Source: a virus
Length of the DNA: 29,329 nt
Virus record (IMG/VR): IMGVR_UViG_3300001815_000090
Location: 18 to 29,346 of that record
Strand: one strand, 5' to 3'
Every line of letters begins with the position of its first letter. Positions within the stretch are counted from its first letter, which is position 1. Made by a program: the position numbers and the translations under genes. Under the pieces are notes generated by a model. That model saw only the letters and a list, made by a program, of their open reading frames with translations, was not told where the DNA came from and made no database searches. This document shows, one piece after another, positions 4,668 through 27,681 of this stretch.

Positions 4668-5030
4668 TCACTCGGCGTCGAGATCGGCGCCGAGCAGCCA
4701 CGCGAGATCATCGACCGTCATGGTCACCCATTGCTCGCCAGGGCGGTTGAGGCTGACGCCGTAGCGCTTGTGCACGATGACGCCAATGGCGGCGTCGTCG
4801 TTGCCGGCCTCGGTCTCCGCCTGCCTCTTCCACGTACTCAGCTCGAGCCGGCTGTGGTTCTTGCACTCGATGACGACGCGCTGCCCTCGATGCCGCACGC
4901 CGCCGATGTCGCCCCTGTCCTTCGCGCCCGTCCGGGCTCGACGCTCGATCCGGTCGTCAACCAGCTCGGCCAGTCGAGCGGCGACGACCGACTCGAGGCG
5001 TGATCCCTTGGCCCGGTCCGCCGCGCTCAT
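4668..5030 (-). CDS. PD-(D/E)XK nuclease, Holliday-junction-resolvase-like
   Basis: 120 residues. The fold signature is E15 in the first helix, D41 in DIGGV, E55 and K57 in IECKN: the order expected of a PD-(D/E)XK core, and close to archaeal Hjc-type and phage resolvases in length. It would cut branched DNA or act in recombination and packaging. The start overlaps the stop of the C5 methyltransferase by 4 bases (ATGA), so the two are co-translated. That pairing also allows a restriction-like nuclease partner for the methyltransferase. The resolvase-like reading is favoured because the protein is small and has no visible target-recognition domain. Confidence 0.75.
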   Translation of the reverse strand: MSAADRAKGSRLESVVAARLAELVDDRIERRARTGAKDRGDIGGVRHRGQRVVIECKNHSRLELSTWKRQAETEAGNDDAAIGVIVHKRYGVSLNRPGEQWVTMTVDDLAWLLGADLDAE

Positions 5031-6148
5031 GCTGCCGCCTTCCGCTTGGGCGGCCGGATGGTCTTCGTCTCGTAGTCGAGCACGGTCTGTCGGTCGTACA
5101 GCGGCGTCTCAAGCGGAAGCTGCTCACCGATGCCGAGCGCTCGGGCGAGGTGCGCCACCATGATCGGCGGCATCGCCGAGCCGGACTGCTGGAACTGGTG
5201 GGAGTTGGCGCCGGCCCACGGGTGGTCGATGGGGAAGCCTTGCATCACGCCGATCTCGAATCCCCTCGGCTTGATGTACACCCCGAGCTTGCCGGTGTCG
5301 GCACGGGGGCGGGTGATCTGACGAGGATTGTCGACCCAGCCGTTCGTGAGCACGCCCCGGCTGTAGATGTCCTGCGGCTGCGACCACGACGTGAGCGGTC
5401 CGACGACCGTCATGGTCTGGGCCGGCCGGCGGGTCCAGCCCCAGCCAACAGCATCGCTCATTGTGAGCCAGGGGAGCAGCGACTCCTCGTCCGGCAGGAA
5501 CTCGTCGCGCTTCCGGCGCGACGAGTACGAGCGGTGCGTCGGTGCCGGCCACGCCACCTCGTCGTGCAGGGACGCCATGAGGAACGCCCGGCGGCGTGTC
5601 TGAGGCAGCCCGTACTGTTCCATCGAGAGCACGCGGGCGGACGCCGAGTAGCCGAGGTCGCGGAGGTGCGACGCGTACTCGTTGAACACCGTCATGGCCG
5701 GCGGCACCTCTTCGAGGATGACGTAGTCGTACGGCGTGCCGGCGCGGTGGGCGGCCGAGATGTACCGCATCGGCTCGAGGATGCCCTGCGTGCGCGAGTC
5801 CTCCCACGACACGTCGGGGGAGCCGCCGGAGGCGTACTCGGCCAAGGCGGATGAGATCCGCTCGGCGTCCCTGTGACCGGACCCGAGGCCGGCCACCGAG
5901 AACGTCGGGCACGGCGGCTGCCCGACGAGCAGCGTGCGAGGGAACAGCCTGTGCTCGGCGAGGCTATCGATCGGGACCTCGGTGACCTCGGCGACGACTG
6001 TCTCGAGCCCAGCCGCCTGCCGGCACTCGACGAACTTGGGTCGAGGATCGATCCCGGTTGTGGCGTGTCGGGGCACCCCGATCATCTCGAGACCGAGCTC
6101 CCAGCCGCCGGCCCCGGCAAAGAGGTTGTGAGTGTGAACGAGCGTCAT
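5027..6148 (-). CDS. DNA (cytosine-5) methyltransferase
   Basis: 373 residues, ribosome site GGGAGG before the ATG. It transfers a methyl group from SAM to C5 of cytosine in DNA. Motifs in order: I FAGAGG (10-15), IV GQPPCPTFS with catalytic C80, VI LEEV (145-148), VIII QYGLPQTRRRAF (178-189), IX RPAQTMTV (241-248), X QSGSAMPP (321-328). The variable target-recognition region lies between VIII and IX or just after. Motif VI reads EEV instead of the usual ENV; the essential glutamate remains. It overlaps the nuclease gene downstream. Likely use: protection of phage DNA from host restriction. A structured hairpin precedes it. Confidence 0.9.
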   Translation of the reverse strand: MTLVHTHNLFAGAGGWELGLEMIGVPRHATTGIDPRPKFVECRQAAGLETVVAEVTEVPIDSLAEHRLFPRTLLVGQPPCPTFSVAGLGSGHRDAERISSALAEYASGGSPDVSWEDSRTQGILEPMRYISAAHRAGTPYDYVILEEVPPAMTVFNEYASHLRDLGYSASARVLSMEQYGLPQTRRRAFLMASLHDEVAWPAPTHRSYSSRRKRDEFLPDEESLLPWLTMSDAVGWGWTRRPAQTMTVVGPLTSWSQPQDIYSRGVLTNGWVDNPRQITRPRADTGKLGVYIKPRGFEIGVMQGFPIDHPWAGANSHQFQQSGSAMPPIMVAHLARALGIGEQLPLETPLYDRQTVLDYETKTIRPPKRKAAA

Positions 6149-6234: not shown

Positions 6235-7152
6235 CTAGGCCAGAATCCTTCTGTATGCCTCGTCGATCCCTCGGCGATAGTCCTCGTCCGTCTCGATCAC
6301 CGTGTCGTCTATGCCGGACCGGGAGATCACCATGTCGTCGAAGATCGACGGGTGCTCCATCTCGTCCTCTGACACCGCCGGCAGCACCCAGGTGTCGCCG
6401 AGCGGGTCTGGCTCGTCCTCGACCACTCGCTCGTCCTCCGGCTCGTCTTCGGTCTCCTCGGGGCGCGCCATGACGGCCGGCGGGGGCACGTGACCGATCA
6501 GGCTGGGGCGGGACGCGCGCGTGTTCGTCTCGCCGGCGTCCCTTGCCGCGGCGCGCTGACGGTTGACGTCCTGCTTGGCCTCGACGCGCCGCCGCAGGTC
6601 GCCAGGTGACAGGCGGAGCGCAAGACACAGGTTGGTGACGAACAGCATGACGTCAGCGAGCTCGTCACGCGCTGCCTCCTCGTTGATGAAGGCGTCTTGG
6701 CTCCACGGCTTCCACCCCACTTCGCGCAGTGTCTCGTGGACCTCGTCGAGCAGCGCGAGCACGTTGTGCTTGATGTACTCGACGCGGGTGGATGTCTCGA
6801 GAGACGCCACGTCGATCCCGTACGCGCTGAGCTGCAGCTCCTCTTGGGCGGCGAAGACGGCGCTCAAGTGGTCGGTTGGCAAGGTCGCCGGATTGGGCAC
6901 GATGATCTCGGGGGCCGGCGGCGACGCCACGCTGCTGACGCGCGACTGAAGATGATCGATGGTCTCGACCATGTCCGCGTGCCGCTCGTTGGCTTCAGCA
7001 AGCTTGGCGGACGTCTGATTGAGCAGATCGGTGAGCGATTCGACGTGACGGGCCATGTCACGGCGTGACGACGCGACCATGGTCAGCGCGGCGGTGAGAC
7101 CGACGGTCGCCACTGTCAGTAAGATCATGAGGACGGTTTCGAACAAGTTCAC
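6235..7152 (-). CDS. Membrane-anchored all-alpha NTP pyrophosphatase (MazG/dimeric dUTPase-dCTPase type)
   Basis: 305 residues. The N-terminal membrane helix (about 5-27) is followed by a coiled coil (about 29-75), a Pro-rich linker and an all-alpha NTP-pyrophosphatase domain (about 95-200). An acidic Glu/Asp-rich tail completes it. The domain shows the metal-binding pattern E137xxE140 ... E164xxD167 and a basic helix KQDVNRQR. Members convert (d)NTP to (d)NMP plus pyrophosphate; T4 gp56 (dCTPase/dUTPase) belongs to this superfamily. A membrane anchor and coiled coil on such an enzyme are unusual. The start overlaps the stop of the zinc-ribbon gene (ATGA). Substrate cannot be read from the sequence. 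Confidence 0.8.
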   Translation of the reverse strand: MNLFETVLMILLTVATVGLTAALTMVASSRRDMARHVESLTDLLNQTSAKLAEANERHADMVETIDHLQSRVSSVASPPAPEIIVPNPATLPTDHLSAVFAAQEELQLSAYGIDVASLETSTRVEYIKHNVLALLDEVHETLREVGWKPWSQDAFINEEAARDELADVMLFVTNLCLALRLSPGDLRRRVEAKQDVNRQRAAARDAGETNTRASRPSLIGHVPPPAVMARPEETEDEPEDERVVEDEPDPLGDTWVLPAVSEDEMEHPSIFDDMVISRSGIDDTVIETDEDYRRGIDEAYRRILA

Positions 7153-11129: not shown

Positions 11130-11756
11130 CTAGGTGAGCCTTGTCAAGATCACCAATCCGTTGCAGTGATCGGTCTCGTAGGTGATCCTGAAGGCGCCTC
11201 GTGTCTCGATCAGGAACTTGTCGACGGCTTGAGTCACGGGGAACGGAGGCTGCGGCGGAAGGCGCTGCATCGAGTGGTGCGGGAACTTCTCGACGGCGGT
11301 GTCATGCAGCACGATCACTCCGCCGTGACCGACCAAGGGCGACCACAGGCGGAGCTCCCGAAGCGTCAGGTCGTAGTCGTGGTTGGTGTCGATGAAGACG
11401 ATGTCCGCGCTGCTGTACAAACTCGTCACCTCGTCCGACACTCGCTCGACGACGTCGAGACTCGTCGAGTCGCCCTTGACGAACGTGCACTGAGGGGCGT
11501 GAGCGACGTGAGGCGGCGCCTCGTTGAGGTCGATCGCCCACAGGCGGCCGCCAGTGATCTGCAGGCCGGCCAGCCACGCGATCGTCGAGACACCACCACG
11601 AACGCCGAGCTCGACGATCGCATCGGACGACCTCGTGGTGACGAGTTGGTACAGGTGCTTCAGATGGGCGTTGATGTCGCCGACTTCCCGAGAATGGATC
11701 TCGAGCGCGTCATGCCACATCTGGCACGTCTGGGCTGTTCGCAGATCGTCCGTCAT
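11130..11756 (-). CDS. Class I SAM-dependent methyltransferase (Methyltransf_24-like)
   Basis: 208 residues. The Rossmann core shows motif I ELGVRGGVS (49-57), the acidic residue D76 after WAI, FIDTNHDY (121-128) and GGVIVLHDT (145-153). The D-x-N-H-D pattern and HD pair are typical of the Methyltransf_24/cephalosporin-hydroxylase-like group, which often methylates small molecules or sugars in a metal-dependent way. The start overlaps the holin-like stop (ATGA), so it belongs to the tail/lysis transcript rather than to DNA metabolism. It could O-methylate a glycan made by the phage glycosyltransferase; that link is inference. Confidence 0.82.
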   Translation of the reverse strand: MTDDLRTAQTCQMWHDALEIHSREVGDINAHLKHLYQLVTTRSSDAIVELGVRGGVSTIAWLAGLQITGGRLWAIDLNEAPPHVAHAPQCTFVKGDSTSLDVVERVSDEVTSLYSSADIVFIDTNHDYDLTLRELRLWSPLVGHGGVIVLHDTAVEKFPHHSMQRLPPQPPFPVTQAVDKFLIETRGAFRITYETDHCNGLVILTRLT

Positions 11757-12037
11757 GAGACGTCGTCCTCTCGCGCGGCCCGCGTGAGCTCTCGGGGCAG
11801 GTACTCCGGCGCGCTGTCGGCGCCGAGCAACCAGCCAAAGGACGGATGCACTCGTCGCTCGAGCAAGGTCACGAGCAGGTAGTAGCCGATCGCGGCGCCG
11901 GCCACGATCGCCGTCTCCCACTGCTCGACGAGCTCCGGATCGGCGTTGACGCCTCGACCGGCCAGCCACGCCACGAACAGCCCGACGAGCGCTGGCACGG
12001 CGGTGCGGATGGTGGCGATGACAACGGTCATGAACAC
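11753..12037 (-). CDS. Holin-like two-helix membrane protein
   Basis: 94 residues from GTG 12037, seven bases after AGGAG; an ATG two codons on is the alternative. Two membrane helices are visible (about 4-28 and 43-62), each starting after a charged turn, followed by a hydrophilic tail with HPSFGWLLG. Size, two helices and soluble C-terminus match actinophage holins. It directly follows the coiled-coil membrane protein and precedes the methyltransferase. The endolysin is not adjacent, so the holin assignment rests on topology and neighbours. Confidence 0.7.
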   Translation of the reverse strand: MFMTVVIATIRTAVPALVGLFVAWLAGRGVNADPELVEQWETAIVAGAAIGYYLLVTLLERRVHPSFGWLLGADSAPEYLPRELTRAAREDDVS

Positions 12038-20041: not shown

Positions 20042-21271
20042 TTACCTTCCAACTAGTTCGGCGGTTACAGGCCGCTTGCGTATTCCAGCACCCATCCCGC
20101 GAGGTGCGATTGACGCCGCGAACTGCCGGTGCGTCAACAGACTGATCGCCAACGTAATATCAGGGAAGTCGGTCGTGATTCTGAATCGAGCCTCAACCGC
20201 GGGCAGGACGCCAGACGCTACAGCGTCAATAGACGACCCTGTGTCGAACGAGACTTCAAGCGCCGGCAGCGTAGCGGCAAAGGACGAGCCGGACTCCGAC
20301 GTCGTCTCGAACGAGACTTCAAGCGCCGGCAGCTCGGCCGCCAGCACGGTTGATGTTGCGGAGCCAGTAGTCTCGAATGACGACTCAATCGCCGGCAGTT
20401 CGGCCGCCAATGACGAGTCGGACTTCGACGTCGTCTCGAATGACGACTCGATCGCCGGCAGCTCGGCCGCCAGAGACGCATCGAACTCCGACGTCGTCTC
20501 GAATGACGACTCGATCGCCGGCAGCTCAGCCACCAGCACGGTTGATGTTGCGGAGCCAGTAGTCTCGAATGACGACTCGATCGCCGGTAGCGTGGCTGCC
20601 AGAGACGCATCGGACTCCGACGTCGTCTCGAATGACGACTCGATTGTCGGCAGCTCGGCCGCCAATGACGAGTCGGTAGACGACGACCCCGACACGCCGT
20701 AGTGCTCGAACACCGCGATCGCGAGGTCCATGTAGCCGGTCGTCGGAACGTCTCCCGGGGAGGCGTCCTGCACGATGAACGCCCGCGGCCCGTCGAACGA
20801 CGCCGAGGAGTCAATGATGCCGACCCGGTACCTGGTGCTGTTCCGTCCCCAACACCCCTGGAACCCGGTGACTGTTCTGGCGTCACGCGTCTCTTGCATG
20901 TCGGTGCCCGACACGTACCAAGTGTCTCCCCCCGTCGTGGGGGACACGGCCGCGATCGCCGCTGGGCAGCCCGTAGCAGTCGCAGAGCCACCGGATGTGT
21001 TGGTGCCGGTGCTGGTGACGGTGATGAATCCGAAGACGTCGCCGCCCGCGTTGTCCGACACGACGGCCAGGCCGGTGAAGTCGAGGTCCGCGACGGTGCA
21101 CGCACCGAACGCGAACCACACCGCGTCATACGCCGAGGCGTCCGGGCTGGCGTCCCATGTCGCCTTCGCCTGCTCGGTGACCGTGTACCCAGCCGCCACG
21201 AAGTGCGCGGTCCACTCGTCGTCCTGCGCGGTCGGCGACGCCCCGGCGTAGACGTAGAGGACAGCGGCCAC
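20042..21271 (-). CDS. Virion-region protein with N-terminal domain and eight tandem repeats
   Basis: 409 residues from GTG 21271, with GAAGG upstream. Residues 1-193 form an alpha/beta domain (VLYVYAGASPTAQDDEW, YDAVWFAFGACTVADLDF, RAFIVQDASPGDVPTTGYM). Its fold looks like a glutamine-amidotransferase/ThuA-type or vWA-like sandwich, but no catalytic triad is clear; it has only a few cysteines. Residues 200-367 hold eight copies of about 20-22 residues with the core LPAIESSFETT. The tail is short and basic. It lies among head-tail connector genes, so it is probably a virion surface component. Function unknown. Confidence 0.75.
   Translation of the reverse strand: MAAVLYVYAGASPTAQDDEWTAHFVAAGYTVTEQAKATWDASPDASAYDAVWFAFGACTVADLDFTGLAVVSDNAGGDVFGFITVTSTGTNTSGGSATATGCPAAIAAVSPTTGGDTWYVSGTDMQETRDARTVTGFQGCWGRNSTRYRVGIIDSSASFDGPRAFIVQDASPGDVPTTGYMDLAIAVFEHYGVSGSSSTDSSLAAELPTIESSFETTSESDASLAATLPAIESSFETTGSATSTVLVAELPAIESSFETTSEFDASLAAELPAIESSFETTSKSDSSLAAELPAIESSFETTGSATSTVLAAELPALEVSFETTSESGSSFAATLPALEVSFDTGSSIDAVASGVLPAVEARFRITTDFPDITLAISLLTHRQFAASIAPRGMGAGIRKRPVTAELVGR
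20171..20674 (-). repeat. Coding tandem repeats (8 units of about 60-66 bp)
   Basis: Minus-strand repeats encode LAAELPAIESSFETTSES-type units. Two triplets (units 2-4 and 5-7) match each other as larger blocks, with the insertion GSATSTV after the first unit of each, so a three-unit block was duplicated. The last two units have drifted (LPALEVSFDT, LPAVEARFRI). Confidence 0.9.
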
Positions 21272-21273
21272 GA

Positions 21274-21702
21274 CTAGCCGCCTTCAGGCATTGTCACCGA
21301 CCCCGACGTCAGATTGACGTCAAGCCCCGAGCTGACGGTGACTGTGGACATGGTGAGATCTCCTCCTCCGCCCGTGGCGGACACTGTTCCGTCCATGATG
21401 ACATTGTCGTCGCTGTCGTAGAGACGGAACCATCCAACGTCTCCGGATGCGGCTCCGGTTGCGCTGATAGCCGGGCTGAGGGACAGGTCCGCTCGGCCGG
21501 CCGCAGACGCGCCGGCGTTTCCGAACGCAGGATCATTCAGCGTGAACGTCACAAGGAGAGTACCGGTTGCCGTATCCCCAGGGGTCGCGGGCTTGCTGCC
21601 AGACCGGAGCTCGATGTACGCGGCTCCAGATCCGGCGTCGGCGAGATCGACAACAGCGTCTGCTGCAGCGTTACGAGTCGCTGCGGGAAGCCCAATAGCC
21701 AT
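21274..21702 (-). CDS. Small phage structural protein (beta-rich)
   Basis: 142 residues. The beginning AIGLPAATRNAAADAVVDLADAG followed by YIELRSGSKPATPGDTATGTLLVTFTL and DGTVSATGGGGDL is a pattern I associate with a widespread family of phage virion proteins encoded between adaptor and tail genes. All-beta, Gly/Thr-rich, no cysteines. The ribosome site is weak. It would be a decoration or connector subunit. It is followed by the repeat protein within 3 bases. Confidence 0.72.
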   Translation of the reverse strand: MAIGLPAATRNAAADAVVDLADAGSGAAYIELRSGSKPATPGDTATGTLLVTFTLNDPAFGNAGASAAGRADLSLSPAISATGAASGDVGWFRLYDSDDNVIMDGTVSATGGGGDLTMSTVTVSSGLDVNLTSGSVTMPEGG

Positions 21703-21717
21703 GCCGGCATCATCTCA

Positions 21718-22368
21718 CTAGCTCACGCCGGACGGGCCTTGCCATTCGTCCGCAAGCATCATGGGGACGATGTTGGGGATGGCGAACGTCGGGAAGCTGC
21801 TGCGCGGCACCGTATACTCGCCCAGCTGCTCAGTCCCCGGCTCACGATCGCGCCACATGTTGTCGAGCACGTACGAGCAGGCTCGCTTCCACAGATCGGG
21901 CACCGAGGCGGTGTCAGCGAACCGGCCGGCCACGTACGTCACGACAACGTCGCCGTCCCACACGGTCGTGATGCCGGCCACGCGGCGCTCGAGGCGGCCT
22001 GAGTACAGGTGCGACTCGTTCTGCCACCGGTAGGCCAGATAGCCCTCGTTCGGGGGCGCCGTGGTCGACAGCTCCTCAGAGCACACGGTCTGCTCGCCGT
22101 CGCGCCACTCCACAACGCTTGAGAACGAAACGACGGGGGCGAGGCGAGTGCGCACTCGGGTCAGCCGATGCCCCGACACGTTGCGGTGGAGAATCCTCTC
22201 GTCCTCGACCGTTCGCTGCACGATGGGGCCGGCATGCTCCATGCCGTCGAGCGTCCTGGACGCCGCCGTGACGTAATACTGCAGCGATACGTCTTGGCTT
22301 GTGTCTTCGGAATCGATGTCAAGCGCCAGCTTTGCTTCAGCTAGCGTCAGCAGGTCCGTGAGCGCCAC
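21718..22368 (-). CDS. Head-tail adaptor (gp6/gp15-like connector)
   Basis: 216 residues from GTG 22368, eight bases after GAGGAG. The first helices (TDLLTLAEAKLALDIDSEDTSQDVSLQYYVTAASRTLDGM) and the later helix around PDLWKRACSYVLDNMWRD are typical of phage adaptor proteins that bind the portal ring. A beta insertion (RTRLAPVVSFSSVVEW) lies between. The gene starts 32 bases inside the end of the glycosyltransferase gene, an unusually long overlap. The ribosome site inside that gene supports this start. Confidence 0.82.
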   Translation of the reverse strand: MALTDLLTLAEAKLALDIDSEDTSQDVSLQYYVTAASRTLDGMEHAGPIVQRTVEDERILHRNVSGHRLTRVRTRLAPVVSFSSVVEWRDGEQTVCSEELSTTAPPNEGYLAYRWQNESHLYSGRLERRVAGITTVWDGDVVVTYVAGRFADTASVPDLWKRACSYVLDNMWRDREPGTEQLGEYTVPRSSFPTFAIPNIVPMMLADEWQGPSGVS

Positions 22369-23857
22369 TGCGAATCTCCTCTACGAACGGGCTCCACTTA
22401 CGACGGAATGATTCGGTATCAAGACGCAGGATCTCGGCTCGTTCACGATCACCAAACCAGTCGCAATCGACGGTTGCACCGCCCGGTCCCTTGCCAGTCA
22501 CATCGACGTGCTGGCACGTGGCGGCGAGGACGATGCCGCTGCGGTAGCCGTTGCTGCCGCTCCGCACGCGCGTGTGCAGCAGCGACAGCACGAGGTCGTT
22601 GTCGCCGTACCACCACGTCATATCCTGAGGGAAACGGTACCCACCGACCATGTACTCGCCCTTCAGCATGAAGGCGAAGCCGGCGATTCCGCCCGTGCCG
22701 TCATAGCGGTTACCGCAGATGTCTGTCTTCTCAAGTATCGCGGTCTCCCCGCCACGGCCGTCGTAGTTTCCGCTGACGAGGAAGTACTCGGGATGATCGT
22801 CTATGGCGTGACTCAGAATCGCAAGGAAGTCGGGGCACACCTCGAGGTCATTGTTCAGGAATGCAATACGAGTTCGAGGACCGTGTGTCTCGATCAAGTG
22901 CTCGGCGCCCATGTTCCACATGTGATGAATGCCGGCGCCTGGGGCCGCGAGCACGGTGACGTTGTGGTGTTCCTGCCACCAGTCGAGCCGTTCAGCCGTC
23001 ACATCCTCGACTGACCCGTTGTCCACGACGACGATCTCGTCGTAGGGCGACGCGACCAACTGCTCGAGCAGCCGGTCGGTGAGGTGCATCTTGTCTTTCA
23101 TCGGGATCACGGCCGTCAGGCGGGGCCGCTGACCGGTCCGGTCGCCGATGTCGCTCGGCCACCAGATGCGGCCGTTCTTGTCGTGACCGATCTTGGTCGT
23201 CGTGTCGACGAAGACACGGAAACCGAGCTGATTCACCTGGTGGCAGAACGCGAGATCCTCACTCACCCAGTGCGCGACACTCCCGTCAGAACCGTCGACG
23301 TTCACGACTCGCTCCGAGAACCAGCCGTAGTCGTGACCGGCCTCGTCACGCATGCGCTCAAGCACGCGCTTGTGGATCATGAGACACGCTGTGCCGGTGC
23401 CGGCGACCTGCACGAGCGAGTTCTCGACATAGTCGAGCTGAACGCGCGTGAATCCGGTTGACCCCGGAACATGGTCGTACTGATAGATCGTGGGGATGGC
23501 GCCGTTGCCCGTGACCATGACGCACAGGCCGCCGACCACGTCAGCATTCACGTGATGGGCCGCCATCTGCAGGCGGACGATCACGTCGTGGGGAAACACC
23601 ATGTCGCTGTCGAGGAACAGCAGCCATTCCGCGCCGTTGTTCTCGGACTCGCGCAGGAACGCGGCCGCCAAGTCGTTGCGACTCTTGCTGATCTGCGCGC
23701 CGCTCCGCGCCTCGAGCACGCCGGCCAGCGCGTCGATCCCGCTGGACACGTCGAACGCACGGAGCTCGTGCAGCGAGCGCGAGTACTCAGCGCTCACCCG
23801 ACCCGGCGACACGTTGGCGATGTAGGTCGGGACGATCTCGAGCTTGTCGTCGCTCAC
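22337..23857 (-). CDS. Two-domain glycosyltransferase
   Basis: 506 residues from GTG 23857, with GAGGT upstream. Domain A (about 1-240) is a GT-A fold with FLDSDM (D83, D85), the acidic SEDLAFC (199-205) and a late GHDKNG (H225). Domain B (about 247-490) is a second GT2-type domain with TAVIPM, IVVVDNGS (276-282), FLNNDLEV (NND 335-337) and YGDNDL (417-422). Each domain could transfer a sugar from a nucleotide sugar. Acceptor unknown: virion proteins (suggested by position among virion genes) or modified DNA bases (suggested by the two upstream enzymes). It overlaps both neighbours by 4 and 32 bases. Confidence 0.88.
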   Translation of the reverse strand: MSDDKLEIVPTYIANVSPGRVSAEYSRSLHELRAFDVSSGIDALAGVLEARSGAQISKSRNDLAAAFLRESENNGAEWLLFLDSDMVFPHDVIVRLQMAAHHVNADVVGGLCVMVTGNGAIPTIYQYDHVPGSTGFTRVQLDYVENSLVQVAGTGTACLMIHKRVLERMRDEAGHDYGWFSERVVNVDGSDGSVAHWVSEDLAFCHQVNQLGFRVFVDTTTKIGHDKNGRIWWPSDIGDRTGQRPRLTAVIPMKDKMHLTDRLLEQLVASPYDEIVVVDNGSVEDVTAERLDWWQEHHNVTVLAAPGAGIHHMWNMGAEHLIETHGPRTRIAFLNNDLEVCPDFLAILSHAIDDHPEYFLVSGNYDGRGGETAILEKTDICGNRYDGTGGIAGFAFMLKGEYMVGGYRFPQDMTWWYGDNDLVLSLLHTRVRSGSNGYRSGIVLAATCQHVDVTGKGPGGATVDCDWFGDRERAEILRLDTESFRRKWSPFVEEIRSGAHGPADAS

Positions 23858-24726
23858 GTGTACCTCACGAAGTAGCGCGTGTAGGGGTCAAAGAGCTCGT
23901 CACGGTGAAGGAACGGAACGTGATCATGGAACCACGTCGGCCGGCCAATGTGGCGGACGGCGTCGAGCGCCGACTGCGTGTAGGACGACCAGACGCCCCT
24001 CTCGCCGGAGAACGTCATCGAGTCGATGACAGGCAGGGGCGTGTCGTCCTCGACGGTCTTGAGGCGCTCAGCGGCCTCGATGTCCTTCTCGTACAGATGC
24101 AGGGAGTCGGCGCGGTGCGCGTACCGACCGGGTGGCAAGCCGAGATAGCCGGCAACCGCCAGCTGCAAGCGGGTGAACATGAAGACGTCGTACGGCACAC
24201 CGAGCCAGACGTCGCTCGACCTCATGTGAGCGTCGAGGCACAGGTGATTGTCGCGGATTGAGAACCGAAAGTAGACCGTGCACGGCACGTCCTTGGACGG
24301 CGGTCCCATCGCGTCCCACGGCCGCCACACCAGCGCGACCGCCTGGCGGGTGTCAGGGTCCGCCTTGAGTCGTTCGACGACGCTCAGCATCTGAGACGAG
24401 ATTCGAGGGCCGTACGCGCCCTGAAGCGTGACACCATCGTCCGAGAACTGCGAGAAACGACCGTTGGACGCCGCATCGAGCTGATACAGACTGCTCACGC
24501 CGGCGACAAGATGAGCCGCTTCGGTCGCCGCTATCTTCACGTTGAGGCGACGACCGACATCTGGCACCAGCAGCGCGCGCTGAGGACTCTCGAGAACGAA
24601 CGACGCGCGCTCGATCTCCCGCGTCGGAACGCCACGGGGCGACACACGGACGCCTTTGTCACGGACAAAGGCGACGAGCGACTTGTACTCACTCGACATG
24701 CTCGTCAACCGATGACGCGTCATCAT
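23854..24726 (-). CDS. Thymidylate-synthase-family enzyme, predicted dCMP (hydroxy)methylase
   Basis: 290 residues from ATG 24726, sharing ATGA with the kinase stop; a start at 24723 or a later one at 24699 is possible. Family landmarks, in my numbering: E69, catalytic C149 in DVPC, RSSD (169-172), D180 in GVPYD, and H210/Y212 in LHLY. Spacings C to RS (20), D to D (8) and D to H (30) equal those of E. coli ThyA (C146, R166, D169, N177, H207). N177, which reads the uracil face, is Asp here, as in T4 dCMP hydroxymethylase. The His after the Cys is Thr, and the Gln before RS is Met, also as in T4 gp42. The Arg-Arg pair of ThyA reads Arg-Gln. Substrate change is inferred from family knowledge. 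Confidence 0.82.
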   Translation of the reverse strand: MMTRHRLTSMSSEYKSLVAFVRDKGVRVSPRGVPTREIERASFVLESPQRALLVPDVGRRLNVKIAATEAAHLVAGVSSLYQLDAASNGRFSQFSDDGVTLQGAYGPRISSQMLSVVERLKADPDTRQAVALVWRPWDAMGPPSKDVPCTVYFRFSIRDNHLCLDAHMRSSDVWLGVPYDVFMFTRLQLAVAGYLGLPPGRYAHRADSLHLYEKDIEAAERLKTVEDDTPLPVIDSMTFSGERGVWSSYTQSALDAVRHIGRPTWFHDHVPFLHRDELFDPYTRYFVRYT

Positions 24727-25322
24727 TCTGCGCTCCACAGGTTTGTTCCGAGCATCCAGATGTCGAACAACTTTGAGATGATCTCGTGTTGCGACATGCC
24801 GTCGATTGCGATGTCACGCCACCCTAGACGACGAAGATCGGGGAGCAAGGACACATACGCGTCGTTCGCGTCAATGATCTGATCTTCAGTCAGCAGAGAA
24901 TCGCCGCGACGATCATAGCGATCACAGAGAATGTCGGGGTCGTTCGCGTACATCACGACCTTGACGGGGCCGCACGCTTGACTGATCTCTTTGTCAAGAC
25001 CGACAAGATCATCCCAGTCAGAGTATTGAGACTCCCGCCCGACGATGGGGGGATAGACGAACTCGCCCAGGTGCCAGCGATCCATGAGCCAGTAGTGACG
25101 GCGCCACGAGTGGACGTCCGACCAGATCGGCGTGACGTACTCGTCGTACAGACCCCAATACCCAGGCTCTTTCGGGAACGGGCCGCGCGACATCACGCGA
25201 ACATCCCGAACCGAGACATCCGCCGCTGCTTCATAGCGCTTGCGCTGATCGCTCGAGCTAAGATCTCGTATCGCTGTCGACTTGCCGACGAGGTCGGCGC
25301 CTTCGATGAGTAGTGCAGGCAT
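24723..25322 (-). CDS. P-loop deoxynucleoside monophosphate kinase-like enzyme
   Basis: 199 residues. Walker A GADLVGKST (8-16) follows LLIE, as in thymidylate kinase and deoxynucleoside kinase families. DRWHLGE (81-87) resembles the DRY/DRW base-binding motif, and DRYDRRGDSLL (134-144) resembles the LID with its arginines. It should phosphorylate a nucleotide or nucleoside. It is first of the three-gene insert and overlaps the thymidylate-synthase-like gene. TAAGGT lies seven bases before the ATG and AAGG could also serve as a ribosome site, so the start is either leaderless or weakly leadered. Role may parallel T4 gp1 (hmdCMP kinase). Confidence 0.82.
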   Translation of the reverse strand: MPALLIEGADLVGKSTAIRDLSSSDQRKRYEAAADVSVRDVRVMSRGPFPKEPGYWGLYDEYVTPIWSDVHSWRRHYWLMDRWHLGEFVYPPIVGRESQYSDWDDLVGLDKEISQACGPVKVVMYANDPDILCDRYDRRGDSLLTEDQIIDANDAYVSLLPDLRRLGWRDIAIDGMSQHEIISKLFDIWMLGTNLWSAE

Positions 25323-25363
25323 GACGGAAACCTTACACCAACGTCAGTACGGCCTACACGTGG

Positions 25364-25409
25364 TTCCCACCAGCAGCACCGGGCGCGCTACCGGTGCTGC
25401 TGGTGGGAA
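25364..25409 (-). terminator. Terminator after the capsid gene
   Basis: A perfect 19-bp stem TTCCCACCAGCAGCACCGG/CCGGTGCTGCTGGTGGGAA with an 8-base loop, 5 bases after the capsid stop. It would cap capsid mRNA and lower expression of the enzyme genes behind it. T-tail absent apart from the stem edge. Confidence 0.75.
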
Positions 25410-25413
25410 GACT

Positions 25414-26841
25414 TCAGCCGACCTCGGGCGGCGTGGTGAGACCGGAGCCGGCGAGCACCAAGGTGGCCGTGGTGTACCGGCCGGCCGTGAAGGCGCTGTA
25501 GCCCCAGGCGACGACGGTCACCGTGAGGTTCTTGGCGTCCGGCTGCACCTCGATCATGTTGGGGACAGCCGACTCAGTCCACAGGCGCAGATCGGACGTC
25601 CGCGTGATCACGACCGGATCGGTTGTCGATCCCTGCGTCTCGTCGTACGAGAGCGTGATCGGCATGTTGGCGTCGAGGATGACCGGCGTGTTGTGGATAA
25701 AGCCGGCGATGTTGCTCTCGAAGTCTTGCCCGGGCTGCACCCGACCGAAGGTGTTGAAGGGCCCGTTGGCGGTCGGGGTGACGACCGGCCGGTCGCTGCC
25801 GTCGACAGCCTGCAGCATGTACGCCCACCGACGCGGGTGCATGAAGACGACCTGAGCGCCCCGCTTGCGGTTGGTCCGCAGCGTGCCGAGCGCCGAGATG
25901 ATCTGACGCATCTGCGTGATGGCACCGGCGTCCGAGACCGTGATGGTCGAGATGCCGGTCGTGCTCAGGATGCCATAGTGCTCGTTGTTCGCCCCCGAAC
26001 CGTTCCACAGCTGCCGGTCGAGCTCCTCGGAGTACGTCCCGACCAGATCCTCCATGATGATCGAGTCAGCGCCGGCACCGGCACCGCGGTCGATCGACTG
26101 ACGCGAGAGGTCGTTGTAGCCGGCGATCGTGATGACCGGGATCTCGAGGTCGTCGGTCGTGTAGGTCCGGCTCGAGACGGCCGTGTTCTCTGTCGTCTGG
26201 GAGCCCACCAGCGTGCCGGTCTGGGCCCGGGGCAGCGTGACGGTCAGACCGACCGGCGGCAGGTCAGACGCACCGATAGCCAGCCCGAACGGCATGCCCT
26301 CACGAGCGATCGGCGCGAACTCGTTGACCAAGTACTGCGGAGTCACGATCGAGTTGAAGTCACTCGAGTCGTTGGCCGCCCGGGCCTCCGGGTGCGAGCC
26401 GCCTCGCCGGCCGAGCTCGTAGCCCATGTGACGGTTGATGCGGTCGGCGGCGTTCGGGTTGCGCGTCATGTTGCGCAGGTCGGCGAAGAACGAGTGCGAC
26501 CCGCCCTTGCGGTAGATGTCGGGCTCGGACACGCTTGCGCCGGCCTGACGCCGCTCGTGCACGACGTCCTCACCGAGTCGATCAACGAACTCGCGCTGCT
26601 CGTCATCGGCTTCCTGGACGCGCTCCAGCTGAGCGATGCGCTCCTCGACCTGCTTGCGGTCCTCATCGAGCTTGTCGACTGCGGCGCGAGCCTCGTTGAA
26701 CTTCTCGAGGTCTGTGCCCGACAGCTCGCTCTCGCCGCGCGACTGAACGCCGTCCACGAGCGACCGCATCTCGGCAACCGCAGCCGAACGCTCGTCCAGA
26801 ATCTGCCGGAGGCGGCTCCGCAGCTCTTTCAGCGTGAACAT
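25414..26841 (-). CDS. Major capsid protein, HK97 fold
   Basis: 475 residues with AGGAGAT upstream of the ATG. The first about 100 residues are a charged coiled coil (delta/scaffold domain), with a likely cleavage site before the capsid domain somewhere around 100-150. The remainder shows HK97-type patterns: FNSIVTPQYLVNEFAPIAREG, TGTLVGSQTTENTAVSS, EELDRQLWNGSGANNEHYGIL and the P-domain-like VVFMHPRRWAYMLQAV. It follows the prohead protease and is followed by a strong terminator, fitting an abundantly expressed gene. Confidence 0.95.
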   Translation of the reverse strand: MFTLKELRSRLRQILDERSAAVAEMRSLVDGVQSRGESELSGTDLEKFNEARAAVDKLDEDRKQVEERIAQLERVQEADDEQREFVDRLGEDVVHERRQAGASVSEPDIYRKGGSHSFFADLRNMTRNPNAADRINRHMGYELGRRGGSHPEARAANDSSDFNSIVTPQYLVNEFAPIAREGMPFGLAIGASDLPPVGLTVTLPRAQTGTLVGSQTTENTAVSSRTYTTDDLEIPVITIAGYNDLSRQSIDRGAGAGADSIIMEDLVGTYSEELDRQLWNGSGANNEHYGILSTTGISTITVSDAGAITQMRQIISALGTLRTNRKRGAQVVFMHPRRWAYMLQAVDGSDRPVVTPTANGPFNTFGRVQPGQDFESNIAGFIHNTPVILDANMPITLSYDETQGSTTDPVVITRTSDLRLWTESAVPNMIEVQPDAKNLTVTVVAWGYSAFTAGRYTTATLVLAGSGLTTPPEVG

Positions 26842-26922
26842 AGTGATCTCCTATCGAACTGAGATTGTCATGAGACAGCCTGAGTGCGATCGAAGGTGCA
26901 ACGTCGGGTGATAGCTGCGGTG

Positions 26923-26934
26923 CGATAGCTATCG
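26923..26934. promoter_or_regulatory. 12-bp palindrome upstream of the capsid gene
   Basis: CGATAGCTATCG is in the 132-base gap before the capsid gene, with a partial second copy GATAGCT about 14 bases away. It may be a regulator site or an RNA processing hairpin. No clear -35/-10 pair is seen in this gap. Confidence 0.35.
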
Positions 26935-26973
26935 GCGCGACGCGCGGCGTTCGTGCGGCTCGTGCTCAATCAA

Positions 26974-27681
26974 TCATACGGTGAGCGAGTCGATTGACGC
27001 AGTAGCCAGTGACAGGCCCATACCGCGCTTCTTGTCCTTGCCCTTCTTGTAGCCGGCACCGAGCCCCACCACAGTCGCGGGATTCGCCGGGTAGTTCACG
27101 ACCGACACGTCGAATAGGCGAACCTCGCGGATGAAACGGCGCGTGAAGTTCTCATTCCATTCCTGACGAGTCACCTGAAACGCGAACGACATGGCATCAA
27201 GCTCGCCGCGGTCGATTCGGTTCACGATCTCCATCGAGTACTGCGACCGAGTGTCCGGCATCGTCTCGTTGAGCAGCCCAATCGAGTCGTCCTCAAGCGA
27301 CAAGGTGCCGGCGCGTGTCGCACCGAGCGGCAGGCCGGCGTGATCGAACAGCATGCGCACGTTGTCGTTCTCGTCAATACTCTTGGTCGCGGCGCCGGCC
27401 TCAACAGACTCCGTCCAACCACCCATGTCGGGGCCGCCGTACAAGTCGTACTCGAAGCCCCAGACGCTGGCGTAACCGCGAATGACGGGCTGATCAGTGC
27501 CGTCGTCCGTCTGACGACGCTCAAGCATGAGGCTGGCGTCGTCTCGCTTGATGACTCGCTGCTCGAGAATCCTCGAGCCTCGGTTGACATCGAAGCCGGC
27601 AGTACGGGTCGACAGGTCGGCGCCTGCGTCCATCAGACGCTTCAGCAGCGGCTCGGGCAGGTTGCGGCAGTCAGTGGGCAT
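26974..27681 (-). CDS. Prohead protease, HK97-type peptidase S78
   Basis: 235 residues, with GAGGAGGT upstream of the ATG. The S78 core runs from PVIRGYASVWG to SVVNYPANP. The catalytic His is H114 in FDHAGLPLG and the Ser is S165 in DAMSFAFQV, in the order expected for this herpesvirus-type protease fold. It should trim the capsid delta domain during maturation. It lies between portal and capsid as in HK97. Confidence 0.92.
   Translation of the reverse strand: MPTDCRNLPEPLLKRLMDAGADLSTRTAGFDVNRGSRILEQRVIKRDDASLMLERRQTDDGTDQPVIRGYASVWGFEYDLYGGPDMGGWTESVEAGAATKSIDENDNVRMLFDHAGLPLGATRAGTLSLEDDSIGLLNETMPDTRSQYSMEIVNRIDRGELDAMSFAFQVTRQEWNENFTRRFIREVRLFDVSVVNYPANPATVVGLGAGYKKGKDKKRGMGLSLATASIDSLTV

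Follow-up and report, generated by a model that had tools for sequence, protein, structure and literature searches.

In a 29,329-nucleotide stretch of DNA from an uncultured virus (hereafter the window), which makes up nearly all of the 29,346-base IMG/VR virus record IMGVR_UViG_3300001815_000090, genes for a nucleotide kinase, a thymidylate synthase (TS)-like enzyme and a tandem glycosyltransferase (GT) lie between the genes of the major capsid protein and a head-tail adaptor. The reading that we favour, with modest confidence, is that two functional units stand back to back here: a kinase-TS pair that would supply 5-hydroxymethyldeoxycytidine triphosphate (hmdCTP) and was inserted into a variable virion-glycosylation slot, and a GT that would decorate the virion. 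The first-pass annotation had proposed the complete route of phage T4. The early part of that route, namely the formation of 5-hydroxymethyl-dCMP (hmdCMP) from deoxycytidine monophosphate (dCMP) by the TS-like enzyme and its phosphorylation to the diphosphate (hmdCDP) by the kinase, we infer with good support because of the residues, the fold, the conserved kinase-TS pairing and the restriction resistance of Stenotrophomonas phage AXL3. The addition of a sugar to 5-hydroxymethylcytosine (hmC) was not supported: the GT is more likely to decorate the virion than to glycosylate DNA, because its family occupies the slot between capsid and adaptor genes in phages where a hydroxymethylase was not found.

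Gene order, residues, fold and distribution are observed here; the enzyme activities, the entry of hmC into DNA and the acceptor of the GT, which we infer, would combine as follows. The TS-like enzyme would transfer a methylene group from methylene-tetrahydrofolate onto C5 of dCMP, and hydration would give hmdCMP. The kinase would form the diphosphate and host enzymes the triphosphate, and the phage polymerase would insert hmC into DNA, by which host restriction would be blunted. The kinase-TS pair would be the newcomer and the GT the resident of the variable slot, which runs from the capsid gene to the head-tail adaptor gene. The tandem GT-A enzyme would glycosylate the virion, with the capsid as a possible acceptor protein, perhaps with help from the sugar O-methyltransferase-like protein of the phage.

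The gene order observed on the minus strand is portal, protease, major capsid protein, kinase, TS-like enzyme, GT and head-tail adaptor. The features from the capsid gene onwards are:

25414..26841, minus strand: major capsid protein, upstream border (Pfam Phage_capsid 9.2e-11; phrog_2263 4.8e-42)
25323..25413, minus strand: capsid-kinase spacer with an 18-bp perfect hairpin just past the capsid stop codon (RNA fold)
24723..25322, minus strand: P-loop nucleotide kinase, thymidylate-kinase-like, 199 amino acids, proposed hmdCMP kinase (phrog_761 5.6e-8; conserved motifs)
23854..24726, minus strand: TS-family enzyme resembling dCMP hydroxymethylase, 290 amino acids from ATG (Pfam Thymidylat_synt 5.5e-20; PHROG 1.3e-41)
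22337..23857, minus strand: tandem GT-A glycosyltransferase, 506 amino acids, GTG start, proposed virion-decorating enzyme (phrog_1574-type N-terminal domain, GT2 C-terminal domain)
21718..22368, minus strand: head-tail adaptor, downstream border (phrog_442 1.6e-9)

The family matches and the order bear out the earlier claim of a kinase, a TS-family enzyme and a two-domain GT between capsid and adaptor genes. The 4-base overlaps that it gave were also recovered, between the TS-like and GT genes and, provided that translation of the TS-like protein begins at the ATG at 24726, between the kinase and TS-like genes; an alternative upstream start is the GTG at 24738. The GT gene and the adaptor gene (22368-21718) share 32 bases, and 91 bases separate the end of the major capsid protein gene from the kinase gene downstream. 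An assembly artefact was rejected as unlikely because the same arrangement is present in three contigs, the window and two further IMG/VR contigs, G001 (37 kb) and IMGVR_3300001815_000132, with TS and GT proteins 100% identical; the window and G001 share 99.7-99.9% identity across their overlap. In unannotated contigs, genes were called by open reading frame and codon-position composition.

The TS-like enzyme was compared with known enzymes at the diagnostic positions 143, 147, 177 and 167 (E. coli ThyA numbering). The window enzyme has Asp146, Thr150, Asp180 and Ser170 there (D/T/D/S), with Arg127 at position 126, and this combination is invariant in the viral relatives compared (82/82). T4 gp42 likewise has D/T/D/S, ThyA has L/H/N/S, the dUMP hydroxymethylase of SPO1 has D/N/N/S, and a MilA-like chromosomal enzyme has D/T/D/A with Lys126. 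The residue spacing reported in the first-pass annotation, with Asp180 at the position of ThyA Asn177, was reproduced exactly: C149 to R169 is 20, D172 to D180 is 8 and D180 to H210 is 30, corresponding to C146-R166, D169-N177 and N177-H207 in ThyA. On this comparison Asp180 is no chance substitution, because Asp occupies the position in all 82 viral relatives.

In the T4 dCMP hydroxymethylase, Asp179 recognises cytosine (PMC6400193), and Asp145, three residues before the catalytic Cys, activates the water that becomes the hydroxyl and is described as the signature of hydroxymethylation (PMC6400193, IUCrJ). The window enzyme carries this Asp in Asp146-Val-Pro-Cys149. In environmental phage DNA analysed with MetaGPA, 177 and 147 were the top two positions linked to modified cytosine (PMC8670742). 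A preference for deoxyribonucleotides goes with Ser/Arg and one for ribonucleotides with Ala/Lys (MilA paper, PMC5175136); the window enzyme has Ser170 and Arg127 at ThyA positions 167 and 126 and is predicted to prefer a deoxy substrate. With T4 gp42 it has in common Asp177, Thr147, Asp143, Ser167, Arg126, the catalytic Cys, Glu58, His207 and Tyr209, whereas gp42 is distant in sequence, has a longer C-terminal extension and carries Ser94 where the window enzyme has Gly, the one exception among the cytosine-specific and hydroxymethylase-type residues compared. The gp42 gene, unlike that of the window, lies among replication genes, beside the beta-glucosyltransferase gene.

The AlphaFold2 model of the TS-like enzyme has a predicted local distance difference test score (pLDDT) of 91.9. 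Its best match in the VIA structure comparison is MilA (Z 27.4), followed by a phage dCMP hydroxylase (9iqc/9iqu, Z 22.6-23.5) and thymidylate synthases (Z about 21-22). MilA, the CMP hydroxymethylase of Streptomyces rimofaciens, is also the nearest solved structure by sequence (1.5e-27; 1.1e-49 with a 40-sequence profile) and has Asp at 143 and 177, but it uses Ala176 and Lys133 for ribose where the window enzyme has Ser170 and Arg127.

Several enzyme types were considered and rejected at these positions. The window enzyme has Asp180, Thr150 and Asp146 in place of the Asn177, His147 and Leu143 of the ThyA type, and Ser170/Arg127 in place of the Ala167 and Lys126 of a MilA-type ribonucleotide (CMP) enzyme. 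The dUMP hydroxymethylase of the SPO1 gp29 type has Asn at 177 and 147, as does the TS of LuckyBarnes with its 5-hydroxymethyluracil pathway; the window enzyme has Asp180 and Thr150.

The kinase has a weaker family match than the TS-like enzyme (phrog_761, thymidylate kinase, 5.6e-8). In an alignment of 79 kinases from TS-bearing contigs, the conserved motifs are kept in the window protein: E7, G8, D10, G13 and K14; D81, R82, W83, H84, G86 and E87 (DRWHxGE); and R139, G140 and D141. These comprise the Walker A motif, the DR motif and the LID Arg-Gly-Asp of phage deoxynucleoside monophosphate kinases. With 199 amino acids, the window kinase is without the extra C-terminal domain of most relatives (about 340 amino acids). 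A tblastn search at 1e-2 found no match to it among named phages, and the relatives came from queries of fetched loci.

The kinase-TS pairing is, to judge from the loci compared, old and general, because two kinase queries match 78 and 82 of the 87 loci with the window's TS subfamily. A dCMP deaminase query matches 80 of these loci and a DNA polymerase I (PolI) query 78; the relatives keep the pair in the replication module, usually followed by the deaminase and PolI. The complete kinase-TS-GT cassette was not found in 84,980 species genomes, in which 38 TS relatives were found, none with a kinase or GT of the window type nearby. Recent transfer of the kinase and TS genes from phages like DSL-LC01 was considered: the identity is just about 35-42%, and no recent donor was found, although the third-position G+C content of the kinase gene (given below) is rather low.

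The closest parallels are DSL-LC01, an Actinomycetia phage, and AXL3, which have the same TS subfamily (38-40% identity) with a thymidylate-kinase-like gene directly upstream. They differ from the window in that the pair lies in the replication module with a dCMP deaminase (and with PolI in DSL-LC01 and an NTP pyrophosphatase in AXL3), in that the kinase is about 330 amino acids long with an extra domain, and in that no GT adjoins the pair. The AXL3 TS has the same diagnostic residues as the window enzyme; the match of its neighbouring kinase-like gene (Pfam 0.0053) is below the cut-off. The AXL3 pair (gp28/gp29) was annotated as a thymidylate synthase with a "thymidylate kinase", and the modification was left as unknown by its authors (PMC7504290). 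AXL3 DNA was cut by two of 37 enzymes, TasI and Tru1I, which have A/T-only sites, and the 35 failing enzymes all have G/C in their sites (PMC7504290). Restriction resistance in this TS subfamily does not seem to depend on a GT, because none is annotated across the 18-gene stretch around the AXL3 pair.

The GT matches Pfam GT2 at residues 249-371 (2.7e-13) and, in its N-terminal part, phrog_1574 at 19-233 (1.8e-18). In Foldseek it is best matched by tandem GT-A enzymes, K4 chondroitin polymerase and COLGALT1 among them, obtained with a model of mean pLDDT 71 whose first domain exceeds 80 along most of its length. Pfam GT2 is a GT-A family, and the GT-B fold of the T4-type DNA glucosyltransferases (GT63/GT72) was not found. 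A GT profile gave a sole match among PDB sequences, STIV A197 (0.003). The alpha- and beta-glucosyltransferases of T4 (GT72, GT63) and the T6 enzyme TAGT resemble the window GT as sugar transferases near a hydroxymethylase gene, TAGT also in its predicted GT-A fold; the T4 enzymes differ in having the GT-B fold, and the comparison with the window GT is one of fold and position.

Used as a query, the N-terminal GT domain matched 80 viral loci. Among the best matches (L110-L127), a capsid gene is followed by the GT gene, often with a small protein gene before it and often with a second GT, an epimerase or a Methyltransf_24/RMNT_CmcI methyltransferase after it, and then by adaptor-like genes; at least 20 of 68 upstream neighbours match phrog_10, a major head protein. 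The closest full-length homologue, in locus L107, is homologous over both GT domains (E 1e-74) and occupies the same capsid-adaptor slot without TS or kinase. The window GT is placed like its homologues, which differ from it in that no hydroxymethylase-kinase pair accompanies them in the slot. The TS profile had no match in 19 GT-slot contigs, which are fragments and weigh little alone, nor in the complete genomes MW202711, in which the GT adjoins the capsid gene, DLP_6 and ACG-2014f. Conversely, none of the sampled flanks of TS relatives has a GT of the window type.

The window capsid protein matches 57 phages, and an actinobacterial host, as the first-pass annotation had suggested, is supported because all 57 infect Mycobacterium or Mycolicibacterium. 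The slot of mycobacteriophage Courthouse encodes three GTs and a TylF-type methyltransferase, and that of Typha and prophiGD43A-5 is without any GT; the TS profile found no match in any of the three. The mycobacteriophages Che8 and Rita are reported to bear glycans on their capsids, as cited in PMC11256854.

The main alternative for the GT is a complete T4-like pathway, in which hmdCMP is made and phosphorylated and the tandem GT then attaches a sugar, or two, to the hmC of the DNA. The adjacent genes with 4-base overlaps would suit it, two GT domains could build a disaccharide, and a GT-A DNA glycosyltransferase is known in T6; yet L107 and the best N-domain matches occupy the capsid slot in loci that yielded no hydroxymethylase, and none of the sampled TS flanks has such a GT, and we regard this pathway as unlikely. 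Less likely again is that the inserted pair recruited the capsid-slot GT as a new GT-A DNA glycosyltransferase, which would place one or two sugars, possibly O-methylated, on hmC within a late-expressed operon. Should the GT in fact modify DNA, it would represent a hypermodification enzyme of a new type. As for the TS-like enzyme, another dCMP product, either 5-methyl-dCMP as in phage XP12 or 5-hydroxy-dCMP as from an RB69-type 5-hydroxy-dCMP synthase, seems distinctly improbable. Asp at 177 alone converts thymidylate synthase to a dCMP methylase (Liu and Santi 1992, as cited in PMC8670742), and the dCMP hydroxylase is among the VIA matches. However, Asp146 is the residue of hydroxymethylation in T4, MilA and SPO1, where ThyA has Leu. 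The 5-methyl-dCMP alternative named in the first-pass annotation accordingly appears less likely because Asp146 is the hydroxymethylation signature described for the T4 enzyme, in a comparison set without the XP12 dCMP methylase. RB69 ORF048c, which by its length and family presumably belongs to the 5-hydroxy-dCMP synthase type, no longer has D169, G173 and Y209 and carries Glu three residues before the Cys, whereas the window enzyme keeps D172, G176, Y212 and Asp146 (one RB69 sequence compared; these residues are tentative markers). Ordinary nucleotide metabolism, in which a thymidylate synthase and a thymidylate kinase supply dTTP with no base modification, agrees with the family-level phage annotation, including AXL3 gp28/gp29. 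It is very improbable: no TS-specific residue stands at 143, 147 or 177, the DNA of AXL3 resists restriction, and that phage has in addition a gene for a thymidylate synthase complementing protein (PMC7504290).

Several observations weigh against a precursor pair beside a virion-decorating GT. A shared function would suit the 4-base overlap between the genes of the TS-like enzyme and the GT, GT-A DNA glucosyltransferases exist in that T6 TAGT is predicted to be GT-A (PMC13216743), and phage KimJongPhill combines a distant relative of the GT C-terminal domain with a TS having Asp at 177. Most GT-slot contigs are fragments, so absence there is weak evidence, and the GTs of Courthouse are unrelated in sequence to the window GT, the parallel being positional only. 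The proposed T4 signature Ser/Thr-x-Tyr (Ser94-x-Tyr96) is Gly103-Ala-Tyr105 in the window enzyme, with Gly in all 82 viral relatives and the Tyr kept; this position sorts products imperfectly because RB69 ORF048c carries Thr there. A dCMP deaminase was not recognised in the window or in the 37-kb relative. A C5-cytosine methyltransferase gene of the window (listed below) suggests that some cytosines are left unmodified; partial modification is possible because such an enzyme is hard to reconcile with complete cytosine replacement.

The window enzyme extends a large phage family, mostly annotated "thymidylate synthase", whose members are probably dCMP hydroxymethylases. A short residue rule separates these from thymidylate synthases, in agreement with the reported restriction resistance of AXL3. 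Since a kinase-TS pair can occupy a virion-decoration locus, the adjacency of a hydroxymethylase and a GT alone is no evidence for glycosylated DNA.

The RNA fold of the capsid-kinase spacer has −53.6 kcal/mol (z −5.2), and no shuffled sequence was equally stable. The capsid transcript may end at the hairpin, because its 18-bp perfect stem follows the capsid stop codon; a consensus terminator scan missed it. A sigma-70-type promoter had no match in 21600-27000, and actinobacterial promoters need not fit that consensus. The G+C content at third codon positions is rather low in the kinase gene (0.69 versus 0.77-0.90 for most large neighbours), and several other window genes are equally low.

Further genes of the window that may bear on the proposed functions are:

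5027-6148, minus strand: C5-cytosine DNA methyltransferase, adjoining the dUTPase_2/MazG-like gene
6235..7152, minus strand: dUTPase_2/MazG-like NTP pyrophosphatase of the replication module, possible dCTP pyrophosphatase partner (Pfam dUTPase_2 1.7e-6)
11130..11969, minus strand: Methyltransf_24/RMNT_CmcI methyltransferase, possible sugar O-methyltransferase partner of the GT (Pfam 7.7e-15 and 8.2e-13)

The dUTPase_2/MazG-like protein may remove dCTP. L125 and L127 encode homologues of the 11130-11969 methyltransferase (37-40% identity) in their capsid-adaptor region.

Among relatives of the TS-like enzyme, chromosomal ones, mostly from Streptomyces (L196-L209, L213, L229), have Asp177, Thr147 and Asp143 with Gly at the ribose-sensing position 167, and are possibly ribonucleotide hydroxymethylases of nucleoside pathways. 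The "thymidylate synthase" of the Streptomyces phage KimJongPhill (L193:161-1045) has Asp at 177, Thr at 147 and Arg three residues before the Cys, and many Gordonia phages have homologues under the name thymidylate synthase. It may be a dCMP enzyme that has gone unrecognised and forms a different product, whose nature is uncertain because Arg, not Asp, stands at that position.

In the GT slot of other phages, a small protein is encoded just before the GT in many loci (L110:5603-5833, L111:5709-6008, L114:5620-5886, L120:580-795), with a shared motif like DDPLVxxxPDLF and an end often near APGEKR; no counterpart was seen in the window. At L110:6699-7253, a serine-recombinase-like gene (MRIGIARVSTRDQHPEAQEDAL) lies between the slot GT and the adaptor. 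A protein with repeated units like AAELPAIESSFETTS is encoded in the window at 20042-21271 (minus strand); it has 409 amino acids in the window and in 3300001815_000132 and 452 in G001. The copy number of the repeat array appears to vary between strains, because the contigs show a 129-base difference at the repeats. G001 also encodes a 1373-amino-acid protein (L023:13745-17863) whose single reading frame joins a D5_N primase/helicase region to a family A DNA polymerase.

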